A stretch of DNA of 60,444 nucleotides, from assembly GCF_030378065.1 (NCBI RefSeq), contig NZ_JAUCGJ010000027.1:1-60444 (forward strand). The letters run 5' to 3'. Shown here piece by piece: positions 4,335-37,936 of the stretch. The notes beneath the pieces were generated by a model. It did no database searches, was not told the origin of the DNA, and saw nothing but the letters and a program-made list of their open reading frames with translations. The position numbers and the translations under genes were made by a program. The first letter of the stretch is position 1. Every line of letters begins with the position of its first letter. This stretch comes from Candidatus Venteria ishoeyi. GTDB lineage: Bacteria; Pseudomonadota; Gammaproteobacteria; Beggiatoales; Beggiatoaceae.

Positions 4335-6590
4335 TTATTTTTCAGTTGTGTCCTTTTTCTGAATCTGTAACACAGGCAAACCGCTGTCCTCATCTTCATA
4401 TTGTTTGGGTACTAACTGCCGGGCTTCAAGGAATAATCCAGTGGCACGGTCATAGTTGCTGTAAGCCACGTTATAGGCGACATAACTGTTGAGGAAGCCT
4501 TGCTCAGTATTTACCCGTTCATTCTGGGCATCAAGCAGGCGCTCCAGATAGGTGCTGTTATCACTGTCCACCAGATTTGCGCTACGCCTTTCTTCAAGTG
4601 TATCCAGGTGTGCTTGGCGGGCTTGCATGGATTGATATTGCGCAAGCATTTCCCGGTAGGCGGTATCGAGTTCACGTACTGCGACTTGAACTTCCAATAA
4701 AATGGTTTCGATGGTGGTTTGCAGTTGTGCGGTGAGCTGGCGCACTTCAATGCTACGGCGGCGATGACGTGCTTTAGCAACGTGATTACCCAGTGCCATG
4801 TCAAACATCAAACCAATACCATAGCTGGGGCCACCGCGATCAAATTGGTCGGAAAAAGCTTGACCGACATCGTATTCATCACGCAGGCCATGCAGGGTGG
4901 CTTCAGCGACAAAATCCAGCACCGGTTGCAGTTCTTTTTCGGTCATTTGCATACGGATGACCCCGGCTTTAAGTTGCTTGAAGGCTTGCAACACTTCCGG
5001 ACGATGTTCCAGTGCGATTTGCGCGGCAGCTTTGATATTCGTAGGCATGGCAAACATTTTCGGGGAGTCAGTCGTCACCAGTTCAAATGCATCATTTGCC
5101 AGCAGTTCCGGGTCATTAATCAGTGAGGCCAGTTTACCTTCGGCATTTCTGACGGCTTGTTCGGAGCGGATACTGGCAGCATAGCGTTGGGCTTTACTGG
5201 CTTTAGCCAGTTTCATACGGGTACCTAGCGTATCTATGCCACTGCGTGCTTCAAGTTCAGCCACCACTTTTTCCGCTTCGGTGAAAAGTTTTTTCTGTTG
5301 CAACAGGTTGGCGCGTTCCAGATATAAAGCCCAGTAGCTGCGCTCAACTTCCAGCAGGTGAGTGGAGACCTGACGGATGAATTCGTCCATGGAGACCTGA
5401 TGGTCAACCTTGGCAATATCTATCTGGCTTTCGTTGTATTCAAAGCCGGCACCATTGAGCAGAGGTTGACGAAAGGTCAGGCTGAGGTTGGCGCGGCCTT
5501 GTTCTTTAGGGTTAAAATAAGTGGAATTATTGTCGCGGTGACCGATTTCCTGAGCAATTTCAATATTACCACCCGTGGTGAATTTTTTACGTAGCCCCGC
5601 TTCCAGATACCAGTCATTTTCTTTAAATCGGGTAGGGCCGCCGGTTTCGAGGTCACTGCCGGTAGGTCTGTCAGTACGTCCATATTTGGCTTCCACAAAC
5701 AAATGGGGATCAAATTTACCTTTAGTTTCTTCTATCACGGTTTCACGAATCAAAGGCAGATCACTGAATACACGCATCTGGCTTGAGTGACTCAATGCAC
5801 GTAATAGGAGTTCGTCAAGTTTTTGGTAAGTACGGTTGGATTTGGGATTCATTTGTGCAATTACTAAAGCTTGCCACCAGGGTTCAAAATCTACTGGTAT
5901 TGCTTGTAATTGCATTTCCTGCTCAGGGTTTTCAATCACTTGTATGCTAGCCTGGGCAACGCTGCTACTGACTTCGACCCGGCGATTTTTGGCGCGACCT
6001 TCTGCTGTCGCATTATCCGCTGTCGGCATACTGTCTCCCATGCCAACGTAATTAATAGCATCCGCTGTCAGCTTGAGTTCTTGACGTAGAAATAAGGCAA
6101 CCTGGCGTGCACGCTCAGCAGATAAAGACTGGTTATCGGGAAATCGGCTTTGTAATGTGCCACTAGGTGGGATATTATCAGAGTGTCCAACAACATGAAT
6201 CTGGATATTTTGTTCTTTTTTCCCTGCTTGCCCTGCCTTGATCGGTGCAATTTTTGCTCGAAGTTGGTTTTTAGCATCTTCACTGAGTTTTGCGATACCA
6301 TTGGGATAGTGTGCATAAAGCGTAAAACTGGATTGCGCATCTTTTGCCATTACCAGGCGAAAGTGAAAGCGGTAGTTTGAGGGGTCACTGGTAAGTTGTC
6401 TGGCTTTTTCCTGATAGGTTTGCATCAAAGGCTCGCTAATATCATCATAGCGTTCCTGCCAGGATTGCGTGCTACAGGCCGTCAATAGCGAAACACAGGA
6501 AAGCAGTAGCGCATAAGAGCGTGCACGTTTCATTATCTGGTTTAGACATGACGAATGAAAACAGGGACTTGCCGTGGGGATAGATTTCAC
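4335..6590 (-). CDS. OmpA-TolC fusion outer-membrane lipoprotein (efflux / type I secretion duct)
   Basis: The 751-residue product joins two envelope modules. A lipobox (LLTAC, Cys39) ends the signal sequence. An OmpA-like peptidoglycan-binding domain spans about 75-215 (HVVGHSDNIPPSG, LSAERARQVALFL, TAEGRAKNRRVEV). From about 270 to 735 there is a TolC-type outer-membrane efflux protein (long helices, FRQPLLNGAGFEYN, LLEVERSYWALYLERANLLQ, ARQLVPKQYED). The GTG at 6590 has a good AAGGA 8 nt upstream; an internal ATG at 6533 would give a more typical 20-residue lipoprotein signal but has a weaker ribosome site. The OmpA part would anchor the trimeric duct to the cell wall. With the adhesin next door, a role in type I secretion is plausible, but no ABC or membrane-fusion subunit is in the window. 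Confidence 0.88.
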   Translation of the reverse strand: MKSIPTASPCFHSSCLNQIMKRARSYALLLSCVSLLTACSTQSWQERYDDISEPLMQTYQEKARQLTSDPSNYRFHFRLVMAKDAQSSFTLYAHYPNGIAKLSEDAKNQLRAKIAPIKAGQAGKKEQNIQIHVVGHSDNIPPSGTLQSRFPDNQSLSAERARQVALFLRQELKLTADAINYVGMGDSMPTADNATAEGRAKNRRVEVSSSVAQASIQVIENPEQEMQLQAIPVDFEPWWQALVIAQMNPKSNRTYQKLDELLLRALSHSSQMRVFSDLPLIRETVIEETKGKFDPHLFVEAKYGRTDRPTGSDLETGGPTRFKENDWYLEAGLRKKFTTGGNIEIAQEIGHRDNNSTYFNPKEQGRANLSLTFRQPLLNGAGFEYNESQIDIAKVDHQVSMDEFIRQVSTHLLEVERSYWALYLERANLLQQKKLFTEAEKVVAELEARSGIDTLGTRMKLAKASKAQRYAASIRSEQAVRNAEGKLASLINDPELLANDAFELVTTDSPKMFAMPTNIKAAAQIALEHRPEVLQAFKQLKAGVIRMQMTEKELQPVLDFVAEATLHGLRDEYDVGQAFSDQFDRGGPSYGIGLMFDMALGNHVAKARHRRRSIEVRQLTAQLQTTIETILLEVQVAVRELDTAYREMLAQYQSMQARQAHLDTLEERRSANLVDSDNSTYLERLLDAQNERVNTEQGFLNSYVAYNVAYSNYDRATGLFLEARQLVPKQYEDEDSGLPVLQIQKKDTTEK

Positions 6591-7108: not shown

Positions 7109-8740
7109 ATGTCACCATCCCACCCACAACACATCCTCGACCTATTCCAAGATGTTTGCACCCGCTATGCGCAATCAACTGCACTGACTCAGCACCTGTC
7201 TCGCAATAAACAGTTTAAAATCAGCTTTGCACAACTCAATTTCCGTGCCAATGCTTTGGCAGATTATTTATTACAGCGGGGTTTGCAACCACAGGCAAAA
7301 GTCGGCTTGTATATGCGACGCTGTCCTGAGCAAGTCATCGCAATGCTGGCGATACTAAAAGCAGGCGCAATATTTTACAATCTCAATCCCAAGCTTTCCG
7401 CTGCTCAGGTTAATTATAGCCTGAAAATCTGCGCTTCCTCCTGGCTGCTAGTGGATAATGCCGCTTTGTTACGTTTGCAGCAGGCAAATACACTGATGCC
7501 CACCAAGCTATTACGCTTTAGTGATGAAATATTGACACCTATTCATGCCTCTTTAATTGATAAGTTATCCCAACACTTACAGGTGGATAATCTCAGTTGT
7601 CAAGACTTGAATACTACAGATCCGGTTAAATCGGTTTTAAGCTCACAATCTAGCTCGGCATCTATGGCAGCAACAGTATTGTTTACTTCCGGTTCTACCG
7701 GAGATCCTAAAGCTGTACAGATTGGACATACTGATTTGCTCAAGCGCGTCAGCAAGGAAATCACCGCTTATGCGCTGACATCTGAAGATCGACTGTTAAA
7801 TGTGTTGCCATTTTCTTTTGATGTAGGCTTGAATCAGTTGTTTAGCACTTTATGCAGTGGCGCAGAATTGATCTTGCTTAATAGTTGGCTGGCGGTAGAT
7901 ATTTGCCATGTGATTAAACAGCATCAAATCACTGGCGTTTCCGGTGTACCTAGTTTATGGGCGCAGCTTATGGCTAACCCTGATTCGACATGGCAAAAGC
8001 AAGCACAGGAAAGTTTACAAAACTTACGCTATCTTACTATTTCTGGTGGCGATATGCCGATTCCACAATTACAACAATTACGGCAACTTGTGCCGCAAAC
8101 CCAGATTTACAAAACCTATGGGCAAACCGAGGCTTTCCGGTTGACTATGTTACTTCCGGCGGAGTTTGATAAGCACATGGAAAGTGTGGGGCGAGTAATT
8201 CCAGGTGTTGAGCTATTGATTGTTAATTCTCAAAACCAACCGGTACCCACAGGAGAGCAAGGAGAAGTAGTGATGAGTGGCGAAGGTATGATGCAGGCTT
8301 ATCTAAATGATACCAGGCATGATCTATCTTTACGCCGCCATCCGCTGCGCAACGGACGCATGGCAATATATACCGGGGATATCGGGAGGTTGGATGAACA
8401 AGCCTACCTATACCTGTTGGGTAGAAAGGATAAAATGCTTAAAATACAAGGTAATCGGGTTTATCCCCAGGAAGTTGTTCATATCATGCTCACACATGAA
8501 GCAATACAGGAGGCCGTTGTCGTGGGTGGAGAAAACAAAATCGGAGAAAAAATACTCTGTGCAGCAGTTAGGTTACGTCCAACAATGCGTTTGACGCTTA
8601 TTGAGCTTAAAGCTTTTCTCAGTCAACATTTACCCTCTTATATGCAGCCAACACAATTACAGTTTGTAGAGGATTTCCCACGTACACCATCGGGCAAAAT
8701 TCAACTCAGTACTATTGAGGATTCCTGCTGTGAATGCTAA
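7109..8740 (+). CDS. AMP-forming acyl/aminoacyl ligase (exosortase-A-associated ligase type)
   Basis: The 543-residue protein is a complete ANL-superfamily adenylating enzyme. It has the phosphate loop TVLFTSGSTGDPK (about 188-200), YGQTEAFRLT (A5), YTGDIGRLDEQAYL and GRKDKMLKIQGNRV (A7/A8), and the catalytic Lys530 in TPSGKIQ (A10). In FSFDVG (Asp238) the Asp falls where amino-acid-activating domains such as DltA and NRPS A-domains bind the substrate amino group, so an amino acid substrate is inferred. It resembles ligases found beside exosortase A, although no exosortase is seen here. It overlaps the decarboxylase gene by 11 nt and heads a six-gene run whose ACP (10648-10911) is its likely acceptor. 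Confidence 0.85.
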   Translation: MSPSHPQHILDLFQDVCTRYAQSTALTQHLSRNKQFKISFAQLNFRANALADYLLQRGLQPQAKVGLYMRRCPEQVIAMLAILKAGAIFYNLNPKLSAAQVNYSLKICASSWLLVDNAALLRLQQANTLMPTKLLRFSDEILTPIHASLIDKLSQHLQVDNLSCQDLNTTDPVKSVLSSQSSSASMAATVLFTSGSTGDPKAVQIGHTDLLKRVSKEITAYALTSEDRLLNVLPFSFDVGLNQLFSTLCSGAELILLNSWLAVDICHVIKQHQITGVSGVPSLWAQLMANPDSTWQKQAQESLQNLRYLTISGGDMPIPQLQQLRQLVPQTQIYKTYGQTEAFRLTMLLPAEFDKHMESVGRVIPGVELLIVNSQNQPVPTGEQGEVVMSGEGMMQAYLNDTRHDLSLRRHPLRNGRMAIYTGDIGRLDEQAYLYLLGRKDKMLKIQGNRVYPQEVVHIMLTHEAIQEAVVVGGENKIGEKILCAAVRLRPTMRLTLIELKAFLSQHLPSYMQPTQLQFVEDFPRTPSGKIQLSTIEDSCCEC

Positions 8741-9974
8741 AACTTTTTATCAATGGTTTCCTCAGGCACAATTAATTACCTATTGTAGTCAGCACAAAAC
8801 ACCGCTGTATTTGCTTTTAGCGGATATTATCAAGCAACAGATTACTGTGCTGCGTCAAACTTTAGCATCGCCCTGGGATTTGTATTATGCTGTCAAAGCT
8901 AATCCAAACCCTGAGATATTGGCATTAATGGCAAAACAAGGATTGGGTGCAGATGTTGCCTCTGATGGAGAATTAAATGCCGCTTTGGCAGCAGGCATCA
9001 CTGCTAAACGTATCAGCTTCAGCGGCCCCGGTAAAACGGATGCTGAATTACGACTGGCAATGCAGCAAAATATCGGTGCGCTGAATCTGGAGAGCTTGGA
9101 AGAACTGGAACAGGCACTATCGATTGCGACTGAATTTCCGCATCGTTCCCGCCTGGGCCTGCGCATCAATCCCGAAAATAAAGGCATTCGTTCCAGTTTG
9201 AAAATGGCAGGTGCAACCCCTTTTGGCATATCTGAAACTGATGCGCCAGAGGCTTTGCGACGACTGGCAAACAGCCCGCATATCGAATTTGCGGGTTTAC
9301 ACGTACATGCCGGTTCACAGGTATTAGAGGCAGATTCCATTCTGGCAAATATTCAGGCGATATTGGATTTGGCTTTGCGCTTACAACAACAAACCGGCTT
9401 ATCGATTCCCCGCATTAATTGCGGTGGCGGCTTGGGAATACCGTATTTCCCTAATCAGACAAATCTAAACCTGGAAATACTGGCAAGCGGTTTACGGGAC
9501 TTAAAACAAAATCAAGCCTATCAGGATTTGTTTAAAAACACGGAACTCTTATTAGAACCCGGTCGTTTTCTGGTTGCGGAAAGTGGTATTTATGTAACGC
9601 GGGTTTTATATCGTAAAACAGTGGCAGATAAACATTTCGCAATTGTTGATGGTGGTATGCATCATAATTATTTGTTGGCAGGAGGCATGGGACAAATTAT
9701 CCGGCGCAATTTTGAAATGACTATTTTAAGTGCACCGGAAAATTCCGCGCCTAAACCCGCAGATTTTAATCTGGAAGTTGCTGGTTGTCTGTGTACGCCA
9801 CAGGATGTGCTGGCCAGCAGTTTTCCCTGCAACCAGGAAGTTCGGCGAGGTGATTTTATTGTATTTTTTAATTGTGGGGCTTATGGCTTGAGCGCAAGTC
9901 CTACAGGTTTTCTCAGTCATTCCCAGGCTGTAGAAAAAATAATTAACCGAGATGATAATGGCAAAATCTTTTAA
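8730..9974 (+). CDS. PLP-dependent decarboxylase, ornithine/DAP decarboxylase family (exosortase-A-associated type)
   Basis: I chose GTG 8730 because GAGGA lies 8 nt upstream and it gives an 11-nt overlap with the ligase; a TTG at 8715 is also in frame. The 414-residue fold-III enzyme has Lys56 for the Schiff base (YYAVKANPN), GLHVHAGSQ, the glycine loop INCGGGLGIPY, EPGRFLVAESG, a catalytic-type Cys in GCLCTPQDVLA and the C-terminal NCGAYGLSASPTGF. The family removes the alpha-carboxylate of basic amino acids; a relative, BtrK of butirosin synthesis, decarboxylates glutamate while it is bound to a carrier protein. Position between the ligase and the ACP suggests it acts on a free or ACP-bound amino acid. 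The substrate is unknown. Confidence 0.85.
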   Translation: MNAKTFYQWFPQAQLITYCSQHKTPLYLLLADIIKQQITVLRQTLASPWDLYYAVKANPNPEILALMAKQGLGADVASDGELNAALAAGITAKRISFSGPGKTDAELRLAMQQNIGALNLESLEELEQALSIATEFPHRSRLGLRINPENKGIRSSLKMAGATPFGISETDAPEALRRLANSPHIEFAGLHVHAGSQVLEADSILANIQAILDLALRLQQQTGLSIPRINCGGGLGIPYFPNQTNLNLEILASGLRDLKQNQAYQDLFKNTELLLEPGRFLVAESGIYVTRVLYRKTVADKHFAIVDGGMHHNYLLAGGMGQIIRRNFEMTILSAPENSAPKPADFNLEVAGCLCTPQDVLASSFPCNQEVRRGDFIVFFNCGAYGLSASPTGFLSHSQAVEKIINRDDNGKIF

Positions 9975-10563
9975 AATCCAAACTGTCACCGGAACGGAAG
10001 CATTAGCCTATGTTCCCGCTGTTGCGCGCCTACGCGTGGAAATTTTTCATGATTTCCCTTATCTCTATGAGCAAAGCGTGGACTATGAGGAGAAATTCCT
10101 GGGTATTATTTATGCCAATGCGCCAAATTGCCTGTTTGTACTGGTATACGATGGCAAAGAACTGGTTGGTGCTTCCACTGCCCGTCCTTTGGCACATCCC
10201 TTAAAAACCGATGGCGTTGAACAACTTTTTGCTACGCAGGGTTATAATCCGGATGAAGTATTTTATTTCAGTGATTCAGTATTGCGTAAAAATTATCGCG
10301 GACAAGGCTTAGGTGTGCGCTTTTTTGTTGAACGCGAAGCACTCGCCCGCAGCTTTGGTACTTTTAAGCATACTTGTTTTTGCGCGGTACAACGTGCTGA
10401 AAACCACCCACTACGTCCTAAGTCCTATGTTCCACTGGATAATTTTTGGCGTAAACGCGGTTATCATAAAGCTGAAAATTTACAAACACAATTTACCTGG
10501 AAAGATATCGATCAAGCGCAAAGCAGTAAAAAAACGATGCAATTCTGGCTTAAAACACTATAG
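9952..10563 (+). CDS. GNAT family acyltransferase
   Basis: The product has 203 residues. The acetyl-CoA motif A is YRGQGLGVRFF (about 120-130), preceded by FYFSDSVL. The C-terminal block FCAVQRAENHPLRP, LDNFWRKRGY, TWKDID is typical of a GNAT subfamily found near carrier-protein gene sets. ATG 9952 (or 9958) lies inside the end of the decarboxylase gene, so the genes overlap by about 20 nt. It could N-acylate the amine released by the decarboxylase; that is inference from position only. Confidence 0.85.
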   Translation: MIMAKSFKIQTVTGTEALAYVPAVARLRVEIFHDFPYLYEQSVDYEEKFLGIIYANAPNCLFVLVYDGKELVGASTARPLAHPLKTDGVEQLFATQGYNPDEVFYFSDSVLRKNYRGQGLGVRFFVEREALARSFGTFKHTCFCAVQRAENHPLRPKSYVPLDNFWRKRGYHKAENLQTQFTWKDIDQAQSSKKTMQFWLKTL

Positions 10564-10647
10564 TCAAGGCGCATGGTAAAATAAAATTTAACGATTTCCT
10601 TCGCATTAAATAAAATGCATCATTCACCTAATAAACGAGACCAAACC

Positions 10648-10911
10648 ATGTCATTTAATCAAACTGAAATCCAAACTCAGGTTAATCAAATCCTCGCTAG
10701 CTTTATTCAAAAAGCAACCGGCTGGGAAGGTGAGCTAGACCCTGAAATGTCGTTAATTAATGGTGGTTTGATTGATTCACTCAGTCTGGTTAATGTGGTT
10801 GTCGCCCTGCAACAAAACTTTAGTATCGAAATTGGTATTCCCGAAATCACCCTGGAGAACTTTGATACGCTCAATGCAATTTATCAAATGATAGAAAATA
10901 AACTGGCGTAG
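10648..10911 (+). CDS. Acyl carrier protein
   Basis: The product has 87 residues from ATG 10648 (an upstream ATG at 10615 would add 11 unlikely residues). The phosphopantetheine attachment site is Ser44 in GGLIDSLSLVN, followed by the helix II/III pattern (VVVALQQNFSIEIG, TLENFDTLNAIYQMI). It is acidic and the right length for a stand-alone carrier protein. It lies between the GNAT and the MBOAT genes, which is the place of DltC in Dlt operons. It probably carries the aminoacyl group activated by the ligase at 7109. Confidence 0.88.
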   Translation: MSFNQTEIQTQVNQILASFIQKATGWEGELDPEMSLINGGLIDSLSLVNVVVALQQNFSIEIGIPEITLENFDTLNAIYQMIENKLA

Positions 10912-10923
10912 GATGCGCCGTTT

Positions 10924-12357
10924 GTGAATTTTCATTCTTTTGAGTTTGCTGCATTTTTTATTCTGGTCTATATACTCTACTTGCACCTCGGACATCGCGC
11001 TCAAAACCGGATGTTGCTGGTTGCCAGTTATGTATTTTACAGCGCCTGGGATTGGCGTTTTCTTGGGCTGATTTTATTATCCACCATTACTGATTATTTT
11101 TGCTCCCATGCTATCCAAAACAGTGATATAGCACGTATACGAAAAGCATACTTATGGCTCAGCATAATTGTCAATTTATCCATCCTGGGATTTTTTAAAT
11201 ATTTTCATTTTTTTGTTGACAACTTTATTGATTTTTTTGCTTTGTTTGGCTTGCAGCTTCATGCTCCCCTGTGGCAAATTATTTTACCTGTCGGTATTTC
11301 GTTTTATACCTTTCAAACCATCAGTTACACCATTGATGTCTATCGTAAACAGGTAAAACCTGCACCCCAGTTTCTGGATTATGCTTTGTACGTCTCTTTT
11401 TTTCCACAACTGGTTGCAGGCCCCATAGAACGCGGACAACGCCTGCTGCCGCAAATTCTCCAGCCACGAACCATACGACGTGAACAAGTCACAGAGGGCC
11501 TGTTTTTAATTTACTGGGGGTTGTTTAAAAAGATTTTTATCGCTGATAATATTGGTGCGTATTTACAAGCTATCGGCGACCCGGCTGCACCTGGTGTTGA
11601 GAACGGCGGTCTGGTGCTGGTCTATGCTTATGCCTTTTTATTTCAGATTTATTGCGATTTTTCAGCCTATTCTGATATTGCGCGCGGCACAGCAAAACTA
11701 ATGGGCTTTGAGTTGATGATCAACTTCCGCTCCCCCCTGTTTGCACCTAATTTTCAGGAAGTCTGGAATCGCTGGCATATCAGTCTAACAACCTGGATTC
11801 GTGATTATTTGTATTATCCACTGGCGCTGACTCCGATTCGTGGCAAAAACCTGGAGCCGCGTTTAATTGTTATTATCACCTTTTTAATTATGGGCTTATG
11901 GCATGGTGCTTCGTGGAATTTTATACTTTGGGGACTGTATTGTGGTGTGCTATTAGCACTTTATGCAACCTGGTCTGCAAAAACCCGGCGCTTTATGTAT
12001 CAGATTACGGGGCGCAAAGCACAGTTACTGATCTTGCTCTCTATGATGCTCACATTCAATGCCGGTGCTTTTGGTATTTTATTATTTCGGGCAAACTCCT
12101 TTGAACAACTTGGCAGCTGGGTTTACCACTTATTTTTCAATTTCAGCATTAATCTGGAAATGTTGGAATTATTTTTCCGGGTCATATTACACGCACTGCC
12201 ACTCCTGATATTTGATGCTTTAATGTATAAAAAGCAGGATATTCAAGATTTATTTTATTACCCAATCATATTGCGTTATGCTTTTTTTTATCTAACCTTG
12301 TATTTGATGGTCGTGCATGGTGCACAATCCAGTGCATTTATTTATTTTCAGTTCTAA
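10924..12357 (+). CDS. MBOAT family membrane O-acyltransferase (AlgI/DltB-like)
   Basis: The 477-residue polytopic protein starts at GTG 10924, 12 nt after the ACP gene. MBOAT signatures are QLVAGPIERG, FRSPLFAPNFQEVWNRWHISL, TWIRDYLYYPL and MGLWHGASWNFILWGLY, in which His327 is the expected catalytic histidine. Family members move acyl groups from a cytoplasmic donor to an extracytoplasmic polymer (alginate, teichoic acid). Its place between an ACP and an SGNH protein mirrors DltC-DltB-DltD order in function. The acceptor is unknown and is probably an envelope glycan or exopolysaccharide. Confidence 0.9.
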   Translation: MNFHSFEFAAFFILVYILYLHLGHRAQNRMLLVASYVFYSAWDWRFLGLILLSTITDYFCSHAIQNSDIARIRKAYLWLSIIVNLSILGFFKYFHFFVDNFIDFFALFGLQLHAPLWQIILPVGISFYTFQTISYTIDVYRKQVKPAPQFLDYALYVSFFPQLVAGPIERGQRLLPQILQPRTIRREQVTEGLFLIYWGLFKKIFIADNIGAYLQAIGDPAAPGVENGGLVLVYAYAFLFQIYCDFSAYSDIARGTAKLMGFELMINFRSPLFAPNFQEVWNRWHISLTTWIRDYLYYPLALTPIRGKNLEPRLIVIITFLIMGLWHGASWNFILWGLYCGVLLALYATWSAKTRRFMYQITGRKAQLLILLSMMLTFNAGAFGILLFRANSFEQLGSWVYHLFFNFSINLEMLELFFRVILHALPLLIFDALMYKKQDIQDLFYYPIILRYAFFYLTLYLMVVHGAQSSAFIYFQF

Positions 12358-12361
12358 ATCT

Positions 12362-13546
12362 ATGTCCAAATTCCCTTTATCCTCTGAATGCCCACCCTGG
12401 ATACATTTATTTCGCTACTTGCGCCATAAACGTATTTTTATCTTTATTATTCTAGGATTACTGGGCATGGAGTTATTGCTGCAAATGCTGCTGCCACGTA
12501 TTTTAAATGATAACTGGTATCTGCGTATGTACCTGCCCTGGGAAGCAATCAAACAGACTGAACGTTTTCTTGCAGATAAAAGAAGCCTTGAAATTGATGC
12601 CGTACTCGGCTGGAAAAACCGTGCAAATTCATATATAAAATCAGTCCATTATGATCATCTTGGCTCACGTTCAACAGCGAATCTGGACTTAACTCAGCGT
12701 AAAACAAAACGGGTTGTTTTTATTGGTGATTCTCGTATTAATGGTCATTTGGAGGTGGATAACAATCAGACGATTAATGCTTATCTGGAATCCCCTGAAA
12801 TTGAAACTTTTAACTTTGGTTCTGCCATGTATCACCTGGATCAAAGTTATTTAATGATGCAGAAGCGCATTCCAGACTTACGACCAGAAGTGGTGGTAAT
12901 AGGCCTGGGTTCCAAACCAGGTTATCGATTAAGTTGCCATTATTTGCCATTTCATTCACGCGAAGAAACAGTTGATATGCCGTTTATCAAACCACGATTT
13001 TTACTCAAAGATGGGGAACTAAGCGCCCAGATTCCACCTTATCAAAAGCTCTTGGAAAAACTCCCAAATAATCCCTTGCTACCCCGTTACCTCAAACAAT
13101 ATGATCCTTGTTATACACAGTTCAAGCAGTTTAAGCGCTGGGAATCGACACCCCTCTTGGGTTTTATAACAAAACTTAAAATATATTTACAAAAAATGCA
13201 GATATTCACAACAGTGTTTACAAGTGCTTCTTCAAAAACAATGGAAAACCGTGAATTAGTTATTGCATTGCTACGGGGCATTCAACAATTTGCAAGCCAA
13301 CACCAGGTTCAAGTGATATTTTTACTATTCCCCAGAAGCTATGAATACTCTCATCAGGCGCATGATGGACAAACAGATTATGCTCAGACACGTGATATCT
13401 TGCAACAATTGCAGCTTACCTATATTGATGTACAACAATTACTAGGTACACAGTCTGATGCCGTCGATTATTATACTGACTCCGTACATTTTACAGCAAC
13501 TACGAATCATCTGATTGCAAATGCACTTAGTCATCACTTACAGTAA
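12362..13546 (+). CDS. Membrane-anchored SGNH-type protein (DltD/AlgJ-like partner of MBOAT)
   Basis: The 394-residue product starts at ATG 12362, 4 nt after the MBOAT stop; an upstream in-frame ATG (12317) overlaps the MBOAT gene and is less likely. One N-terminal membrane segment (about 24-45, FIFIILGLLGMELLLQML) precedes a periplasmic domain. The catalytic triad pattern of SGNH enzymes is visible: Ser124 in FIGDSRINGH, and Asp373-Ser-Val-His376 in TDSVHFTATTNH. It has the architecture of DltD or AlgJ/AlgX proteins, which complete transfer of the acyl group after the MBOAT step. Overall sequence is not one I recognise beyond these motifs. Confidence 0.75.
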   Translation: MSKFPLSSECPPWIHLFRYLRHKRIFIFIILGLLGMELLLQMLLPRILNDNWYLRMYLPWEAIKQTERFLADKRSLEIDAVLGWKNRANSYIKSVHYDHLGSRSTANLDLTQRKTKRVVFIGDSRINGHLEVDNNQTINAYLESPEIETFNFGSAMYHLDQSYLMMQKRIPDLRPEVVVIGLGSKPGYRLSCHYLPFHSREETVDMPFIKPRFLLKDGELSAQIPPYQKLLEKLPNNPLLPRYLKQYDPCYTQFKQFKRWESTPLLGFITKLKIYLQKMQIFTTVFTSASSKTMENRELVIALLRGIQQFASQHQVQVIFLLFPRSYEYSHQAHDGQTDYAQTRDILQQLQLTYIDVQQLLGTQSDAVDYYTDSVHFTATTNHLIANALSHHLQ

Positions 13547-36154: not shown

Positions 36155-37834
36155 TTAATCAATCGCCCAGGTATCAACAGCCTGTTGCGCAAGCCAGGCT
36201 TGATAATCATTGAGGTTTTTCAGGTTCCAGTATTCATATTCTGCGACCTTTTGCGCCAGAGGAAAAGGACTTTGCTGATAACAGGTGATTTTTTCCTGAA
36301 ATCCTGTACGTTTCAGCATATCTTTTTCCAGTAACACCATATTACCCAGGCGATCCTGTATATCATTCACGCCCTCGCCAAAGGCTTCACACCAGCTTTG
36401 TTCCGGGTGGTAAGGGCAGATATGCTCCAATTGCATTTTAGCATAGTCGGAAGCATGGCCCCGATACGCTTCAATTTCAGCCAATAAAAAGCGGATTTTT
36501 TTGGAAGATTGGCGGCTTGGCATTTTATGGAACTCAAACACATTCATAAACGCCTTATCTTCAGGATAGAGCTTTCTAAATGCTGCACTATTTTTCACAT
36601 GGCTGGCGCGTTTGAAGCTGCCGTCAAAGACCTGCATTGCCATTTGGTTATACAGCGTTTCCTGTTCCTTGGGCGAGTAGTGACAAATGACGTTATAGCG
36701 CACTGATAAGACATATAAATATCTCAGCAGTTTAATAAATTCTTGCCCGGAAAATTTTTGAAAAGCCACCATCAGGATGGTAAAGGGCTGTTTTATATTA
36801 AATAAGCTAAATGCATCCAGATATTTTCTGGCCTGACGGTAAGGCTCACCCTGCGCCGCCCACCAGTCATCATAAGGGCTTAACAGCGAAGCGTAGATGG
36901 GGGCGTAATCAATCAAAGAGTTGAGATAACGATAGGCTTTTTGCGGGGTGTCGGATAAACTTCTGACCGAAGAAAACAGGGCTTTTTTAGTGACCAGTTT
37001 TTTTTGAAAATTATGATGATAACGAATAAAGTCGGTAAAGTTTGCTTCCCCAAGTTGTGAGATAATCTCCGACCAGTTTTCATCCAGATCGTTTAAGTCT
37101 TCATCAGAAACATCATTGTTTTTCGTGACCACGGAAAAAATATAATTTTTTAACAAGTCAGGTGTTGATAACTGTACACCTCTGGCATTGAGTGTTTCAA
37201 AAACCTTATAGGCGTTGAGGTTGTCCTGTACGACAATTTTAGTAAATACCATGCCGGAGCTGAGTTGCTCAATAAATTCTGCAATCTGAGTACCGCTGCT
37301 GCCCATTTTTTTGGCTGAAAAAAAGCGAAAGGCTTTATGCAGTAATTTATTAGTTTGGGTTAATTTGCGTTTATTGGGTGCTTCCAGATTGGAGCAAATG
37401 GATTTGAAGTGGGTGCCGTTGTTTCTGTTGAGAGATAATTTATTGTCAACTTTTAAGGAAATGGGGTTTTTAGCACCAATAAAACGATCTGTTAAGACTG
37501 CTAAACGCTGGGCATTGTCCGCTGCTTCAATGTTCCGCTCAATCAGGTTTTTAATTTGTTTCATAGCCGCCAGAACGATTAAAGACAGTGTCACCAGTCT
37601 TTGCTGCCCGTCTATCACCTGAAAATCATGTTTGCCCATTCTCTGTAAAACGATATACCCCATGTAATGATAGTGTTCTTTTGCCAGTGTACTGATATCA
37701 TCCCATAATTCTTCCCACTGCTCCGTATCCCAGGCATAGTCTCTCTGGAACCTGGGCACGGTATATTTCACGCCATTGCCGACCAATTCCTGAAAGGTTT
37801 GGTTGGTGGGTTCCATTAACATAAACTCATGCAT
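36155..37834 (-). CDS. DUF262/DUF1524 protein, GmrSD-type nuclease
   Basis: From ATG 37834 the product has 559 residues. The N-terminal DUF262 (ParB/Srx-like) region has VPRFQRDYAWDTEQWEELWDDI and the nucleotide-binding DGQQRLVTL. The C-terminal DUF1524 region holds a His-Me finger (HNH) pattern: LEHICPYHPEQ and DRLGNMVLLEKDML. This is the fusion architecture of GmrSD, BrxU and related enzymes that cut modified phage DNA using an NTP. All key residues I can see are present. It stands alone, with repeats on each side (35960-36117 and 37916-37936), as expected of a mobile defence gene. Confidence 0.85.
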   Translation of the reverse strand: MHEFMLMEPTNQTFQELVGNGVKYTVPRFQRDYAWDTEQWEELWDDISTLAKEHYHYMGYIVLQRMGKHDFQVIDGQQRLVTLSLIVLAAMKQIKNLIERNIEAADNAQRLAVLTDRFIGAKNPISLKVDNKLSLNRNNGTHFKSICSNLEAPNKRKLTQTNKLLHKAFRFFSAKKMGSSGTQIAEFIEQLSSGMVFTKIVVQDNLNAYKVFETLNARGVQLSTPDLLKNYIFSVVTKNNDVSDEDLNDLDENWSEIISQLGEANFTDFIRYHHNFQKKLVTKKALFSSVRSLSDTPQKAYRYLNSLIDYAPIYASLLSPYDDWWAAQGEPYRQARKYLDAFSLFNIKQPFTILMVAFQKFSGQEFIKLLRYLYVLSVRYNVICHYSPKEQETLYNQMAMQVFDGSFKRASHVKNSAAFRKLYPEDKAFMNVFEFHKMPSRQSSKKIRFLLAEIEAYRGHASDYAKMQLEHICPYHPEQSWCEAFGEGVNDIQDRLGNMVLLEKDMLKRTGFQEKITCYQQSPFPLAQKVAEYEYWNLKNLNDYQAWLAQQAVDTWAID

Positions 37835-37915
37835 GATTTGCTGCCTTGTTTTCAGGCAAATAATTTTCAGATGCCTGACGGATAACTCGTAAGGTGGATA
37901 AGTGATAGTATTAGT

Positions 37916-37936
37916 GTGACAAGCAAAGCTTGTCAC
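37916..37936. repeat. 21-bp palindrome upstream of the GmrSD-type gene
   Basis: GTGACAAGC and GCTTGTCAC flank AAA, a perfect 9-bp stem. It lies 82 bp upstream of the start at 37834 and could be a dispersed repeat or an operator. Confidence 0.7.

Follow-up and report, generated by a model that had tools for sequence, protein, structure and literature searches.

What group would be built and exported by an operon that sets the parts of a D-alanylation system beside an amino acid decarboxylase and an N-acyltransferase? Such an operon lies at positions 7109-13546 of contig NZ_JAUCGJ010000027.1 of Candidatus Venteria ishoeyi (assembly GCF_030378065.1), of which positions 1-60,444, here called the window, were analysed. 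Its six open reading frames (ORFs), all on the plus strand, encode in order an adenylating ligase, a pyridoxal phosphate (PLP)-dependent decarboxylase, a GNAT acyltransferase, a carrier protein, an MBOAT acyltransferase and a membrane-anchored SGNH-type protein. None of them contains an internal stop, and the successive intergenic spacings are -26, -23, +51, +12 and -41 nt; the ORF positions, translations, spacing and family matches thus confirm the six tightly packed genes described in a first-pass annotation of this DNA.

The answer that we favour, with a confidence slightly better than even, is a Gram-negative Dlt-like pathway in which an N-acylated beta-alanyl (or gamma-aminobutyryl, GABA) group would be assembled on the carrier and then linked as an ester to an envelope glycan. 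In this proposal the ligase would adenylate aspartate, methyl-aspartate or glutamate at the side-chain carboxylate and pass it to the carrier, and the decarboxylase would then remove the free alpha-carboxylate of the carrier-bound amino acid to give beta-alanyl-carrier (from aspartate) or GABA-carrier (from glutamate). The GNAT would acylate the new amine, the MBOAT would take the acyl group off the carrier and across the membrane to the tyrosine of its own C-terminal FIYFQF motif, and the serine of the SGNH protein would receive the group and esterify a periplasmic glycan. The earlier interpretation is retained here in its Dlt logic, its decarboxylation on the carrier and its possible amine cap, and abandoned in its option of loading a preformed amine-bearing acid and in its likening of all four of the first proteins to exosortase-associated families.

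Proposed side-chain loading and decarboxylation on the carrier

The stand-alone ligase (7109..8740, 543 amino acids) has an AMP-binding match of 256.5 bits in Pfam, and its best curated NCBIfam model is TIGR03098, at 381.9 bits and below the cut-off of 592.35. Its FSFDVG motif (residues 235-240) contains D238, which had been proposed as the aspartate that binds an amino group; this residue aligns with the aspartate of FSFDGS and IFDIS in solved linear gramicidin synthase domains, which are adenylation domains of nonribosomal peptide synthetases (NRPS), and the proposal is upheld by that match. With a profile of 12 ligases (A3, the window ligase included), VinN (3wvn) ranked seventh among PDB entries, after five two-domain gramicidin synthase entries and one peptide synthetase; with a 51-residue profile of the pocket from 11 of these ligases, the top two matches were VinN sequences (E 9e-10 and 1.1e-9), and the match after them had 9e-4. 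The alignment of this pocket profile with VinN is ungapped, and S312 and R344 fall on crystal-chain positions 315 and 347, which we infer to be Ser299 and Arg331 of the literature because the offset is a constant 16 that also places Met323. The serine and arginine were thus aligned directly to VinN, and D238 was matched via the NRPS domains. All three residues are the same in every one of the 12 aligned ligases.

According to the literature cited here, Asp230 of VinN recognises the amino group and Ser299/Arg331 the alpha-carboxyl group (PMC7756342), the arginine having this role also in PMC12186527, and it is therefore the side-chain carboxylate that is activated. From the presence of the same aspartate, serine and arginine in the window ligase, it is predicted to activate aspartate or glutamate at the side-chain carboxylate and to load the carrier. 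Among ligase stretches lying within 3 kb of a decarboxylase and aligned pairwise to the window protein, a set of mutually related rows, the aspartate and arginine are present in 41 of 41, and the column of residue 312 holds serine in 33, threonine in 7 and glycine in 1, the last a second, weak stretch in locus L108. The arginine occurs at the column of residue 344 in 12 of the 138 stretches that have no decarboxylase nearby. Left out of these counts are 21 loci that were repeats or belonged to the own genome, duplicates, and any stretch missing one of the positions; many of the rows come from a scan with the patterns [MT]YG[LQ]TEAF and TSGSTG[SDK]PK, the first of which favours this ligase subfamily and does not include the arginine. 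Ligase and decarboxylase matches occurred together in at least 27 of the 80 loci listed in that scan.

The decarboxylase (8715..9974, 419 amino acids, with a TTG start) matches Orn_Arg_deC_N at 164.9 bits, carries VKAN at residues 60-63 and EPGR at 281, and has TIGR03099 as its nearest curated model (375.6 bits, below the cut-off of 478.45). Among solved structures, two BtrK entries come closest to it (E about 2e-69, the best 1.8e-69), followed by diaminopimelate decarboxylase at 1.1e-47; the motif LCTPxD is common to the window protein and BtrK, and the aligned diaminopimelate decarboxylase has ICETGD. We use the label BtrK/VinO-type on the strength of the comparison with BtrK, VinO itself lying outside it. 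The genome has a second, lysA-like match on contig C34, 33% identical to the operon decarboxylase; a diaminopimelate or lysine decarboxylase was rejected as the principal reading of the operon gene, given the nearer BtrK and this lysA-like gene elsewhere.

Taken together, the VinN-type pocket and the BtrK-type decarboxylase support side-chain loading followed by decarboxylation on the carrier, a route that the first-pass annotation had put forward. Its other route, in which an amine-bearing acid would be made first and then loaded, finds no support, since VinN refuses its decarboxylated substrate (PMC11284099) and the VinN-type enzyme AfcQ excludes beta-alanine (PMC12186527). The suggested choice of glutamate, giving GABA, is not established: the BtrK substrate, carrier-bound glutamate (PMC7756342), points that way, and VinN, BolO and AfcQ point at least as strongly to aspartate and beta-alanine.

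Carrier, MBOAT and SGNH proteins

The carrier (10615..10911, 98 amino acids; its start could be the second methionine, at 10648) matches PP-binding at 27.8 bits, above the cut-off of 20.8, and the DltC model at 36.9 of 68 bits, below cut-off; DSLS at residues 54-57 includes the DSL phosphopantetheine motif. The MBOAT (10924..12357, 477 amino acids) matches PF03062 at 75.4 bits (cut-off 27) and the DltB model at 173.3 of 375 bits, again below cut-off, and DltB is the closest solved structure (E 6e-28). WHG at residues 326-328 carries the conserved histidine. The C-terminal FIYFQF (472-477) fits the motif FXYXXF, whose tyrosine is the site of acyl attachment in DltX and PatA; other MBOAT/SGNH pathways have no carrier, evidently because acyl-CoA is used (PMC12148441). 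In the window, the shuttle motif is fused to the MBOAT and occurs together with a carrier, and no separate in-place ORF with a strict FXYXXF motif, and so no DltX-like ORF, was found between 6500 and 14000. DltB as nearest solved relative and the acyl-shuttle motif both favour the Dlt-like assembly of ligase, carrier, MBOAT and SGNH protein recognised at the outset. The genome also has a second MBOAT gene on contig C75 (L232 1319-2752), about 33% identical and ending in FIYFRF, with another gene directly behind it.

The SGNH-type protein (12317..13546, 409 amino acids; its start could be at 12362) reached the cut-off of no Pfam or NCBIfam family. It has one strongly hydrophobic N-terminal stretch, from residue 40, and the motifs GDS (137-139) and DSVH (388-391), in which G137-D138-S139 and His391 are invariant among six aligned sequences. 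A profile of these six gave weak matches to GDSL hydrolases (E 2.9e-5), AlgJ (0.01) and PatB (0.74). Two single-sequence structure models, that of the SGNH protein among them, were poor (predicted local distance difference test scores of 32.8 and 40.0, the latter for the SGNH protein), and a plasmid search with this protein gave no match.

Recurrence of the parts and competing explanations

An order-level survey of 42 genomes with the ligase as query (P0001, 1e-45) gave matches in nine: five stand-alone ligases, in the genome itself and in genomes G004, G002, G026 and G032, and five long frames of 1612-2826 amino acids, interpreted as NRPS, of which one is likewise in G032. G004 gave the best match outside the own genome for all four parts searched, and its ligase (49% identity), decarboxylase (53%), MBOAT (59%), carrier (43%) and SGNH protein (38%) are scattered over four contigs, with the carrier beside the MBOAT. 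G002 and G026 have the gene order SGNH-like protein, MBOAT, ligase, GNAT, carrier, decarboxylase, and four of these parts align with those of the window (ligase 28%, GNAT 44-45%, MBOAT 34-35%, decarboxylase 35%). Their carrier was recognised by a DSF motif and by its identity (62%) with the G032 carrier, which in turn matches the window carrier (26%, E 1e-5). The expectation that the parts would be found together in relatives is thus borne out in G002 and G026 and, over four contigs, in G004. In G032, the ligase (68%), carrier (62%), MBOAT (64%) and SGNH-like protein (44%) resemble the G002 set, and a PLP enzyme of the PALP family and a formyltransferase stand in for decarboxylase and GNAT (L198 8059-10009); the nearest models of the PALP-family enzyme are XcbE, CuyA and D-cysteine desulfhydrase, all below cut-off. 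A gene resembling FGE-sulfatase lies between MBOAT and ligase in G032.

The MBOATs of G002 and G026 are without the C-terminal shuttle motif. Between the SGNH-like gene and the MBOAT of G002, G026 and G032 lies an ORF of 42-43 amino acids (L088 5110-5238, L089 4681-4809 and L198 3121-3252) that ends in FRYQGF, FRYQVF and FLYQAF, and thus resembles a gene for DltX, here in Gram-negative loci. Only 6 of 7,693 ORFs of 30-70 amino acids end in a motif of FXYXXF type (all loci gathered, repeats included). Both of the microproteins that were measured have one hydrophobic helix, and of the codon changes between G002 and G026 in this ORF nine are silent and five are not. One mechanism would thus have two natural solutions, a tyrosine shuttle fused to the MBOAT (window and G004) or supplied by a DltX-like microprotein (G002, G026 and G032).

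In trees of the ligase and the decarboxylase, the window and G004 form one clade, and G002, G026 and Neorhizobium another, nearer to the exosortase-type sequences; G032 joins the second clade in the ligase tree, in which long branches were flagged as meeting at the window clade. Unlike these two trees, that of the GNAT joins both operon types, weakly. The Neorhizobium set (Neorhizobium alkalisoli, L120 8878-11986) comprises a ligase (50%), a carrier (42%) and a decarboxylase (48%), each compared with the better of two reference sets; it lies inside an apparent polysaccharide gene cluster, and no MBOAT match was found in the locus.

Several observations weigh against the favoured pathway. Next to the operon, no genes for an acceptor glycan were recognised. 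The carrier and SGNH-like protein of G002 and G026 had no match to their window counterparts by tblastn, and the SGNH-like protein was assigned solely by its motifs, GES or GAS and DxxH. G032 has no BtrK-type decarboxylase beside its ligase, and its only match genome-wide is lysA-like. Since the trees separate the window from G002 and G026, the sets may have arisen by two separate assemblies or by exchange of parts. Finally, relatives of the GNAT occur in 40 of 369 genomes of the class, the own genome included; in 29 loci with such relatives, the 1.5 kb flanks yielded none of the remaining five parts, and a CN-hydrolase gene adjoins 13 of 32 distinct copies. A search for a GNAT in G004 found none; this assembly is 87% complete, and its decarboxylase gene stops about 150 bases short of the contig end.

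The observations on the GNAT bear most directly on a pathway without a cap, in which a free-amine beta-alanyl or GABA ester, cationic like the product of D-alanylation, would be transferred and the GNAT would serve an unrelated purpose such as the modification of another small molecule. The wide occurrence of GNAT relatives outside the operon, their association with CN-hydrolase and the lack of a GNAT in G004 all speak for this explanation, which we nevertheless regard as rather unlikely, since a GNAT gene is found within each kind of operon and other candidate amine-acylating enzymes fill a similar place. The window GNAT (9952..10563, 203 amino acids) matches PF00583 at 23.7 bits (cut-off 20.7) and that of G002 at 17.0, below the same cut-off; the window, G002 and G026 copies group in the tree with support of 83/86, below the starred level of the tool, and given this grouping independent recruitment of a GNAT in the two operon types is not favoured. 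In seven sphingomonad loci (L116, L127, L124, L123, L129, L114 and L130), a GNAT and a carrier stand divergently beside ligase and decarboxylase, this GNAT belonging in L116, the one tested, to PF13480, a Pfam family different from that of the window GNAT. With the formyltransferase of G032, three possible capping families, two of them presumably of GNAT fold, thus occur in a like setting, a recurrence that favours a capping role. Hence the cap raised as a possibility in the first reading gains support, and the window GNAT probably acylates the amine. GABA thioesters can close to a lactam, as is familiar from general chemistry and from work on butirosin; acylation would therefore prevent this ring closure and also determine what charge the product has. 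The GNAT/CN-hydrolase pairs themselves were seen at L015 636-2088, where the CN-hydrolase was tested against Pfam, and at 12 other loci.

It is also conceivable, and in our judgement distinctly improbable, that two independent systems lie side by side, with ligase, carrier, decarboxylase and GNAT producing a signal or a small amide for secretion, next to an acetyl-CoA-dependent O-acetylation system formed by the MBOAT/SGNH pair. VinN, BolO and AfcQ do serve natural products, acyl-CoA is usual for MBOAT-SGNH pairs (PMC12148441), and close relatives of the MBOAT (42-46%) occur in G007, G011 and G014 with no ligase or carrier detected around them. However, the carrier adjoins the MBOAT both in the window, at a distance of 12 nt, and in G004, whose ligase and decarboxylase sit elsewhere, and a divergent MBOAT of DltB length adjoins the ligase set in G002, G026 and G032. 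It is very improbable that the operon carries out ordinary D-alanylation or forms the ester of an unmodified amino acid, and that its decarboxylase is a bystander acting on diaminopimelate or lysine: DltB is the nearest solved MBOAT and the DltA, DltB and DltC models do match below cut-off, but the ligase scores 381.9 bits with TIGR03098 against 177 (of 476) with DltA, the pocket profile gives VinN 41.4 bits against 22.2 for the best DltA, and the decarboxylase is nearest BtrK in a genome with a separate lysA-like gene, so that a plain Dlt system was rejected on model scores and pocket residues.

Known systems and exosortase-associated families

Each half of the favoured pathway has precedents, in VinN/VinL/VinO, BolO/BolC/BolN and AfcQ on one side and in Dlt and Pat on the other, and its novelty would lie in joining VinN/BtrK chemistry to transfer of Dlt/Pat type. 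With VinN-VinL-VinO-VinM, which makes the vicenistatin starter, and with the BolO and AfcQ systems, it shares the stand-alone adenylating enzyme, the Asp/Ser/Arg pocket, the free-standing carrier and, by proposal, decarboxylation by a PLP enzyme after loading and then N-acylation of the amine (PMC11284099, PMC7756342, PMC12186527). Those systems cap the amine with an amino acid or a fatty acyl group and build the product into a polyketide or peptide, whereas here the cap would be made by the GNAT and the product would go to the MBOAT/SGNH pair. Dlt D-alanylation (DltA, X, B, C and D) has in common with the window the ligase, carrier, MBOAT, SGNH protein and FXYXXF tyrosine motif; the window differs in the fusion of this motif to the MBOAT with no DltX found, in the additional decarboxylase and GNAT, and in the ligase subfamily. 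O-acetylation of PatA/PatB type likewise has an MBOAT with a fused C-terminal motif and an SGNH protein, but evidently uses acyl-CoA without a carrier (PMC12148441).

The BtrJ-BtrI-BtrK route of butirosin resembles the window in its decarboxylase and differs in its loader, which in the window is an adenylating ligase; BtrJ is an ATP-grasp ligase. Five same-family loci (L090, L091, L095, L096 and L097, with Pfam applied to the ATP-grasp protein in L090) hold a BtrK-like decarboxylase and an ATP-grasp protein, an arrangement that recalls BtrJ/BtrK. In the open-licence literature, covered mostly through titles and the beginnings of abstracts in partial listings, no description was found of a ligase/carrier/decarboxylase set combined with an MBOAT-SGNH pair.

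The resemblance of the first four proteins to exosortase-A-associated families, claimed in the first reading, holds for the ligase and the decarboxylase, whose nearest NCBIfam models are TIGR03098 and TIGR03099, and fails for the GNAT and the carrier. Aligned members of these families have the same pocket residues; the window proteins differ in scoring below both cut-offs, and the two pair loci tested hold TIGR03100 or TIGR03101 hydrolases. The remark that no exosortase lies in the window proved correct, with no PF09721 match on its contig, and exosortase A membership was rejected on the sub-threshold scores of both models and the lack of an exosortase at the locus. The genome's one PF09721 match lies on contig C61 (L236 6986-10691), flanked by a membrane protein of 799 amino acids and a protein of 174; no polysaccharide cluster was recognised around it. 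Both TIGR03098 and TIGR03099 are hypothetical equivalogs in NCBIfam and were not mentioned in the open-licence papers searched. In Methylomonas sp. (L111 1276-8256), a TIGR03098/TIGR03099-like pair, adjoined by a TIGR03100 hydrolase, lies near an MBOAT on the opposite strand that ends in FLYFQF and a protein of 399 amino acids without a family; this pair may feed an MBOAT too.

More tentatively, and with slightly less than even confidence, we suggest that carrier-built N-acylated beta-alanine (or GABA) is a general, undescribed building block for envelope and exopolysaccharide glycans, exported here by MBOAT-SGNH pairs of Dlt/Pat type and made by the orphan TIGR03098/TIGR03099 enzymes for exopolysaccharides in many proteobacteria. 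If so, a decarboxylated, probably capped acidic amino acid would be a new type of substituent on bacterial envelope polymers, the pathway would join antibiotic-type chemistry to cell-wall decoration, and TIGR03098 and TIGR03099 would gain a proposed function that can be tested at the level of single residues.

Around the operon, relA follows 46 nt downstream of the SGNH gene, and upstream on the opposite strand (4335-6590) lies a gene for a 751-amino-acid protein with an N-terminal OmpA (peptidoglycan-binding) domain and an outer-membrane efflux (TolC-like) domain, a fusion that looks unusual. Sequence scans gave 21 promoter-like sites against 19.0 expected, a chance level, and 12 terminator-like sites against 7.1 expected; these results were not used. 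Farther along, at 36155-37936 on the minus strand, the window encodes a GmrSD-type restriction endonuclease.

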